DNA of 64,000 nucleotides from Bdellovibrionales bacterium (GTDB taxonomy: Bacteria > Bdellovibrionota > Bdellovibrionia > Bdellovibrionales > Bdellovibrionaceae): positions 905,626-969,625 of the forward strand of contig JAFEAQ010000011.1 of the NCBI GenBank assembly GCA_018266295.1. Direction: 5' to 3'. Of this stretch, positions 42,755 to 43,411 are shown one piece after another (the first letter of the stretch is position 1; the number at the start of each line of letters is the position of its first letter). A model generated the notes under the pieces. That model had not been told where the DNA came from and made no database searches. It saw nothing but the letters and a program-made list of their open reading frames with translations. A program made the position numbers and the translations under genes.

Positions 42755-42820
42755 GACAAAAGAAAAACCCAGGCTTGGGGGGAAAGCCTGGGTTTAGGGG
42801 GTGAACTTGGGGGGAAGTTC
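42755..42820 (-). terminator. Double hairpin terminator with C6 loops
   Basis: AAACCCAGGCTT (42765-42776) pairs with AAGCCTGGGTTT (42784-42795), followed on the minus strand by TTCTTTTG. A second hairpin GAACTT/AAGTTC (42803-42820) lies next to it, and both have loops of six C on the minus strand. No previously listed minus-strand gene ends near; the 33-codon gene at 43081-43182 is the only upstream candidate. Confidence 0.8.
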
Positions 42821-43080
42821 GTTTGTTACTTAATACCTATTGCAGGCGGCATGCCAGCGGATGCGACCTGCGATCGCAGAGTTACAGAGCGAAAATTCTC
42901 AGGGTGAAACACGTGCCGGAGCGAGCGACAAAGATTGCTAACACTTGTACTAGTTAGGAAAAGCGCTTCTGCAGAATCCAGATTTGAACTCTTAGGTCAG
43001 GATTTAAAGTCCCATCCCTGGTCCTAAATTACAGAGTAACTAGAACACGTTCAGAGTTTTATACAGATCTCAATACTTGC
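42821..43080. other. Gap between small gene and double terminator
   Basis: About 260 bases with no frame having a ribosome site on either strand. If the 33-codon gene and the double terminator share a transcript, this is its long 3' untranslated part. TCTGCAGAA occurs here and a similar TGCAGAAGC in the leader, so parts of the transcript could pair. Function unknown. Confidence 0.35.
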
Positions 43081-43182
43081 TTAGAGCAGTTCTTTGAGGA
43101 TTTTCAGGATCAACAAAATTAATCCTAAAACCTGCTTTAAATTTCTTAAGAAACGCCGATACGATACTTGTTGGGGTATCAT
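43081..43182 (-). CDS. Small cationic hydrophobic peptide, 33 residues
   Basis: ATG at 43182 is preceded by AAAGGAG, spaced five to six bases, and the frame closes with TAA after 33 codons. The peptide starts MIPQQVSYRRFLRNLKQ and ends in an Ile/Leu/Val helix with interspersed Lys (LGLILLILKILKELL), net charge about +5. Such peptides are typical of type I toxins or small membrane regulators. The mRNA leader can fold GGACTC with GAGTCC, hiding most of the ribosome site. No homology search was possible; the expression claim rests on the ribosome site and context. Confidence 0.6.
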   Translation of the reverse strand: MIPQQVSYRRFLRNLKQVLGLILLILKILKELL

Positions 43183-43183
43183 A

Positions 43184-43215
43184 GGACTCCTTTGAGGTTA
43201 AGACCTGAAGAGTCC
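43184..43215 (-). promoter_or_regulatory. Hairpin that hides the ribosome site of the small gene
   Basis: On the plus strand GGACTC (43184-43189) and GAGTCC (43210-43215) pair, with an inner AGGT/ACCT stem (43195-43206). On the minus-strand mRNA three bases of the GGAG core are inside the outer stem. This resembles translational control of type I toxins. Confidence 0.5.
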
Positions 43216-43219
43216 ATCC

Positions 43220-43260
43220 AAAAGCGATCCTGCAGAAGCAGTGGTCGCTTTTGCATTTTT
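43220..43260 (+). terminator. Orphan plus-strand terminator over the small gene leader
   Basis: AAAAGCGA (43220-43227) pairs with TCGCTTTT (43245-43252), with an inner CTGC/GCAG stem and GCATTTTT after. It faces plus, while no plus-strand gene lies upstream. A plus-strand RNA ending here would be antisense to the leader of the 33-codon gene. Confidence 0.6.
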
Positions 43261-43411
43261 AGCGCCGTCGTATTGAGTCAACTGCTTTCAAATGGCATCC
43301 GGAAATTAAATAAGCGGAACGAATCCCGGAATACGTATCTCTGATTGAGATTTCGATAGTTTCCAATGCCGGGCCTCATCTTAAGTCCAGGGATGCCGAT
43401 AAATATAAACA

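Follow-up and report, generated by a model that had tools for sequence, protein, structure and literature searches.

What does a short open reading frame lying between two terminator-like hairpins encode in a Bdellovibrionales genome, and how might its expression be controlled? The window, the whole 64,000-nt stretch of DNA analysed here, carries on its minus strand (43182–43081) a frame that runs from ATG to TAA, is preceded by the Shine-Dalgarno (SD) sequence AAAGGAG (43187–43193) and encodes MIPQQVSYRRFLRNLKQVLGLILLILKILKELL, a cationic, amphipathic/hydrophobic peptide of 33 aa. A sequence-only reading had already pointed to this frame and its ribosome site and had put the net charge of the peptide at about +5, the value that we compute from the translation. 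It had also proposed a type I toxin-antitoxin or a small membrane peptide under regulation that gene calls had overlooked, and comparison across the family described below makes this the best-supported reading. With a probability of about 60%, we consider the locus to be one copy of a gene that is dispersed and self-contained, encodes a small membrane-active peptide, is regulated by antisense RNA and works in the manner of a type I toxin-antitoxin.

Relatives were sought with the DNA of the intergenic space and with the peptide. The DNA search recovered leader and frame elsewhere in the same genome (at 85% and 73%); in other genera it recovered the leader. The peptide-only search yielded two further matches in the same genome (96% and 72%) and matches in many relatives, frequently with several copies each. 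The tblastn-type check suggested by the sequence-only reading thus has a positive outcome, the frame being present in many relatives. From the order Bdellovibrionales, at least 106 unique elements were extracted. A model of the 5' region matched 48 of its 141 genomes (E <= 0.01), the highest number of matches in a single genome being 13, and when 369 genomes of the phylum were searched with this model, the matches were confined to the same order. Named carriers include Bdellovibrionaceae, Pseudobdellovibrio and Bdellovibrio sp. qaytius. The genome of the window holds four elements with an intact frame (in the window and at C4:194,7xx, C11:250,5xx and C8:52,1xx) and a decayed one (C8:46,8xx). 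We conclude that frame, leader and 5' hairpin recur together as a multicopy family, beyond chance. Pattern matches outside Bdellovibrionota (in Reyranella, Burkholderia, Rhizobium, Saccharibacteria and others) and one in a viral contig encode no peptide, and we discarded them as chance matches.

Searches with the peptide in Pfam, NCBIfam, PHROGs, PADLOC and PDB sequences gave isolated weak matches and no relative, placing it in neither a defence system (PADLOC) nor a phage protein family (PHROG), and an Rfam search of the window and 12 family loci gave no relevant match. The family escaped annotation because its genes are about 35–40 codons long and match no known model. One genome, G036, gave no family match with the 5'-region model in the order- and phylum-wide searches; it may be B. 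bacteriovorus HD100, in which case the lack of a copy would account for the family's absence from the published HD100 transcriptome, and the published Bdellovibrio RNA-seq cannot confirm the family.

The peptide is under purifying selection, as judged from substitution patterns. The synonymous bias of change, also proposed earlier as a check, is seen in the pooled comparison of 53 related pairs (pN/pS = 0.43) and between the window copy and its nearest paralog in the same genome (pN 0.03, pS 0.40). Across the family, a variable polar N-terminus is followed by the consensus RRxLxxxKxxLxLxLLxLxILKxLLxL; the peptides have a median length of 39 aa, a mean net charge of +5.7 and an amphipathic/hydrophobic helix (moment z ~2). 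Both the 33 aa of the window copy and the family median fall within the size of type I toxins, which are small, usually hydrophobic peptides of <60 aa.

Not all copies are alike. In several (L021, L077, L095, L113, L117, L070 and L006), the C-terminus of the peptide is altered or cut by a frameshift or an early stop and the leader is well kept. The decayed copy in the genome of the window (L087, C8:46804–46845 and downstream) has lost the peptide frame and retains the sigma54 promoter, the 5' segment TTGGGCTTTCCCAATC, the 3' partner and the 3' module. On contigs C33 and C24 of genome G083, divergent copies form arrays (L031, L032) with spacings of ~0.7–3 kb and a GTGAGTGGCAAAAAGGTACGGCGTAC stretch repeated between copies; this subfamily keeps the antisense motif and an SD hairpin, of a different sequence (GACCCCCACC..GGAGGUC), and has no sigma54 motif.

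Upstream of the frame, the family shares a sigma54-type promoter motif. The GG and GC dinucleotides that define such promoters lie exactly 10 nt apart in 79 of 93 elements, and 11 nt apart in 11 more. The same GG-N10-GC was found at a fixed distance in 22 of the 28 elements of a first set, which had been gathered by peptide or leader DNA similarity, independently of selection by the leader model. In the window, the -24 element GG lies at 43265–43266 (minus strand) and the -12 element at 43253–43254, as the GC of AAAATGCAAA, a sequence conserved in the family before the hairpin; rpoN is present in the same genome. The sense transcript is predicted to start 12 nt downstream of the -12 element, at 43241 (+/-2 nt). 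This position is supported because the 5'-3' duplexes described below begin at the predicted first or second transcript base in almost all elements. The 220 nt upstream of the promoter showed neither a shared motif nor a phased signal for an enhancer or activator, and an activator site may be distant or absent.

The predicted start falls inside a bidirectional terminator-like hairpin, AAAAGCGA...TCGCTTTT (43220–43252), which the terminator scan placed on the plus strand at 43231–43255. Its arms covary across the family (-13.3 kcal/mol with their own partner vs -7.7 when swapped). The earlier proposal of a plus-strand terminator at 43220–43260 therefore holds for the hairpin itself but not for a terminator only, since the sense sigma54 promoter overlies it. 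An RNA started at ~43241 would be without the 5' arm of the hairpin, and a read-through RNA would carry both arms.

The leader folds over the ribosome site, as had been claimed. GGACTC (43210–43215) pairs with GAGTCC in a hairpin at 43184–43215 (minus strand) that masks the SD; leader and start together, a stretch of 56 nt, reach a folding energy of -21 kcal/mol (z -5.0), which none of 200 shuffles matched. Across 91 elements this hairpin covaries, with -10.7 for own partners vs -8.8 for swapped ones and -9.86 as the best of 5,000 permutations. The SD had a mean unpaired probability of 0.22 in 46 predicted transcripts, consistent with mRNA folding that limits ribosome access.

A second, long-range helix joins the two ends of the predicted mRNA. 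In the window, CTGCTTCTGCAG, from the 5' partner region within CTGCTTCTGCAGGATCG (43226–43240, minus strand), pairs with TTCTGCAGAAGCG (42964–42976), a segment ~107 nt past the stop. RNAalifold on a MAFFT alignment returned no consensus structure, the stems varying in sequence and position; for this reason structure was tested by partner swapping, and the first covariance model was sequence-only. Own 5' and 3' partners paired at -28.1 kcal/mol vs -19.8 for foreign ones; none of 5,000 permutations approached the value of own partners (best -21.1), and an earlier set gave 0 of 20,000. At least 11 of 12 gapless pairs formed in 50% of own combinations vs 8% of swapped ones. The predicted transcripts of ~280 nt close with a mean pairing probability of 0.96. 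Removal of the 3' end in silico does not free the SD (unpaired 0.22 in full transcripts vs 0.14 without the 3' end), so activation probably needs a further step, such as 5' processing, standby binding or refolding.

The conserved 3' module includes a hairpin region, AGGACCAGGGATGGGACTTTAAATCCTGACCT (42994–43025, minus strand), which recurs by eye in relatives as CCAAGG..GGGACUUAAAAUCCC..CC(U/G)GG. The paralog at C4:194.5 kb in the same genome (L005, 96% identity over 28 residues) is without this region and has a shorter possible 3' partner (CTTCTGCGAAAGC) nearer the stop. A general pairing of a 3' GGACC with the SD-adjacent GGUCC was considered and rejected as inconsistent across copies, by eye.

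Farther downstream, ~145 nt beyond the end of the conserved 3' module near 42964, the minus strand carries a double hairpin with C6 and C7 loops (42765–42820), GAACTT-CCCCCC-AAGTTC followed by AAACCCAGGCTT-TCCCCCC-AAGCCTGGGTTT and a T tract. The terminator scan called a minus-strand terminator at 42765–42795, and the 91-nt double-hairpin stretch folds at -24.1 (z -4.15). It is probably a terminator, and probably a local one before the 42649 gene. Its two C6-loop hairpins resemble 6C RNA of actinobacteria, which also has two hairpins with C6 loops; unlike 6C RNA, it has no Rfam match, and this terminator-like structure is unique to the window. No significant relative was found in 30 genomes (best E 0.014 outside the locus). 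The double hairpin proposed earlier at 42755–42820 is thus real and a plausible local transcript end, and we rejected it as a conserved part of the system.

On the opposite strand, the frame itself contains a candidate promoter that the sequence-only reading had not described. The family motif, TTTA[AG]-N16-[CT]CGA[AT][AT], takes the form CTTTA-N16-CCGATA in the window (43135–43161, plus strand), where the -35 (CTTTA) is weak. FliA (sigma28) drives the attack-phase programme of B. bacteriovorus, with the consensus TTAAG-N16-CCGATA (PMC3627812). The family motif agrees with the general form TAAA/TTAAG-N15-16-(G)CCGATA, its -35 being one base off the published one (TTTAG vs TTAAG). A pattern search of the flagellin loci in the same genome found the same FliA form, TAAAGTTTTAACGCAATGCGCCGAAAAG, upstream of one of them. 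The motif overlies conserved residues, and codon choice was compared with synonymous resampling: CCGA with TTTA[AG] 15–17 nt upstream occurs in 48 of 99 frames, vs a mean of 7.0 and a maximum of 15 in 500 resamplings. Two adjacent conserved arginines take opposite codons, the first CGG or CGA (85/95) and the second CGT or CGC (60/66; p 5e-29), and neighbouring third positions are likewise fixed. These codon patterns reveal a synonymous constraint at the FliA-like motif. A separate nucleotide-level constraint for which this motif does not account is seen at coding columns 35–36 of the peptide alignment, where Leu-Val is mostly written CTA GTT, CTA being otherwise a minor leucine codon in the set.

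The putative antisense RNA would start at ~43170, over the first codons of the gene, and end at ~43259 at the terminator-like hairpin (43170–43259, plus strand). At ~90 nt it would span start codon, SD and leader, and it is predicted to fold at -36.1 kcal/mol. A T tract (>=5 T of 9) follows the hairpin in 71 of 90 elements in the antisense direction vs 53 of 90 in the sense direction. The sequence-only reading had allowed that a plus transcript might simply belong to the 43412 gene; the one predicted here has its own conserved in-frame promoter motif and so would not simply be part of that gene. Its level would be expected to be high in the attack phase, in free-swimming cells, because FliA drives the attack-phase programme (PMC3627812).

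The closest known architectures are aapA/IsoA and hok/Sok. In Helicobacter and Campylobacter, aapA/IsoA combines a short membrane peptide, several chromosomal copies, a cis-overlapping antisense RNA and an mRNA with SD-hiding hairpins and 5'-3' long-distance pairing (PMC6733600). The present family shares the peptide type, the presence of several copies, the SD hairpins and, as predicted, the long-distance interaction of the full mRNA. It differs in that the 5'-3' pairing closes off the 5' terminus and the SD is masked by a local hairpin, in its sigma54 sense and FliA-like antisense promoters, and in having no Rfam match. Masking of the SD by the 3' end, with activation by its removal, was not seen in our in-silico trimming, which leaves the SD closed and departs from the activation model of hok and aapA. 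As in hok/Sok, the 5' end of a stable folded toxin mRNA would pair with its 3' end and a cis antisense RNA would oppose it; the peptide here is shorter and of different sequence, no overlapping reader frame was seen, and searches of Pfam, NCBIfam and Rfam did not place it in the Hok peptide family or a known RNA family. The SOS-linked tisB/IstR-1 and dinQ/AgrB of E. coli encode amphipathic inner-membrane peptides of 27–29 aa behind a structured 5' leader that limits ribosome access (PMC8309996). The likeness extends to peptide type and structured leader; Pfam and NCBIfam gave no match to the TisB or DinQ sequence families, and those systems are LexA-controlled with antitoxin RNAs located in trans. 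The distinctive feature of the present family relative to known type I systems would appear, from the promoter motifs, to be sigma54 on one strand and a FliA-like promoter on the other.

These parts suggest the following mechanism. Sigma54 RNA polymerase would start at ~43241, inside the terminator-like hairpin, such that promoter-made RNA alone escapes it and read-through RNA from upstream is terminated. The mRNA would hide its ribosome site in the local hairpin, and pairing of its 5' end with the segment past the stop would give a compact, closed molecule of ~280 nt. From the in-frame FliA-like promoter, an RNA of ~90 nt over start codon, SD and leader would end at the same hairpin; it would prevent translation, target the mRNA for cleavage, or both. 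With mRNA in excess of antisense, the peptide would be made and inserted in the inner membrane, and the cell would likely be depolarised.

The strongest rival is a sigma54-controlled small membrane protein of ordinary physiology, such as a membrane-complex regulator or a stress protein, tuned by the antisense RNA and playing no toxin role; we consider it unlikely. Purifying selection, wide conservation and several paralogs per genome would suit such a protein. In Campylobacter, the sigma28-driven CjNC1 and CjNC4 are proposed to oppose sigma54-driven mRNAs in trans, with no toxin function (PMC4626219). They resemble the present arrangement in setting a sigma28 RNA against a sigma54 mRNA, but they act on flagellar genes, with no toxin and no cis overlap. 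A hidden SD, closed ends and an antisense RNA, however, form a costly safeguard typical of toxins (PMC6733600), and family copies are often frameshifted or truncated, as would befit a product that is dispensable or harmful.

That the locus is primarily a structured regulatory RNA, with the peptide secondary or the RNA dual-function, is improbable. The strong covarying structure, closed ends and conserved 3' hairpin fit this idea, as does the decayed copy, which keeps promoter, 5'-3' partners and 3' module without a peptide. But the peptide is kept across genera with pN/pS well below 1, and SD and ATG are retained.

Less probable again is a small mobile DNA element (MITE-like), the complementary ends being terminal inverted repeats and the frame a hitch-hiker. 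The elements are dispersed and multicopy and have no conserved neighbours, their 204 flanking proteins falling into 180 clusters. Conserved ends recognised by a transposase should be alike between copies, yet here both ends change together, with 42 distinct 5' segments among 46 elements; in four loci of genus g7, moreover, one copy sits in the same place with both neighbours conserved. A chance frame between real genes with unrelated terminators, for which its shortness and absence from ordinary gene calls might speak, is refuted by the family, including an own-genome paralog with 96% identity over 28 aa and synonymous-biased change.

Returning to the type I-like peptide gene, a more specific version is a self-toxin timed by the life cycle. 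Sigma54 would make the toxin mRNA and FliA the antisense antitoxin, and the balance of attack and growth sigma factors would gate release of a membrane-disrupting peptide. We put this forward tentatively, as a possibility that we rate below even odds; if true, release could occur, for example, in aborted infection, dormancy or prey exit. In the literature searched, we found neither a type I system whose two arms are driven by opposing alternative sigma factors nor a type I toxin-antitoxin from Bdellovibrio-like predators.

With more than 100 unique elements and up to 13 matches per genome, this is a large and previously unannotated family. Confirmation would link a membrane peptide to the attack/growth switch of the predator and would give an example of an mRNA start placed within a terminator that insulates a dangerous gene. 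The family would then also serve as a natural test set for 5'-3' mRNA locking, one that is rich in covariation and does not depend on hok or aapA.
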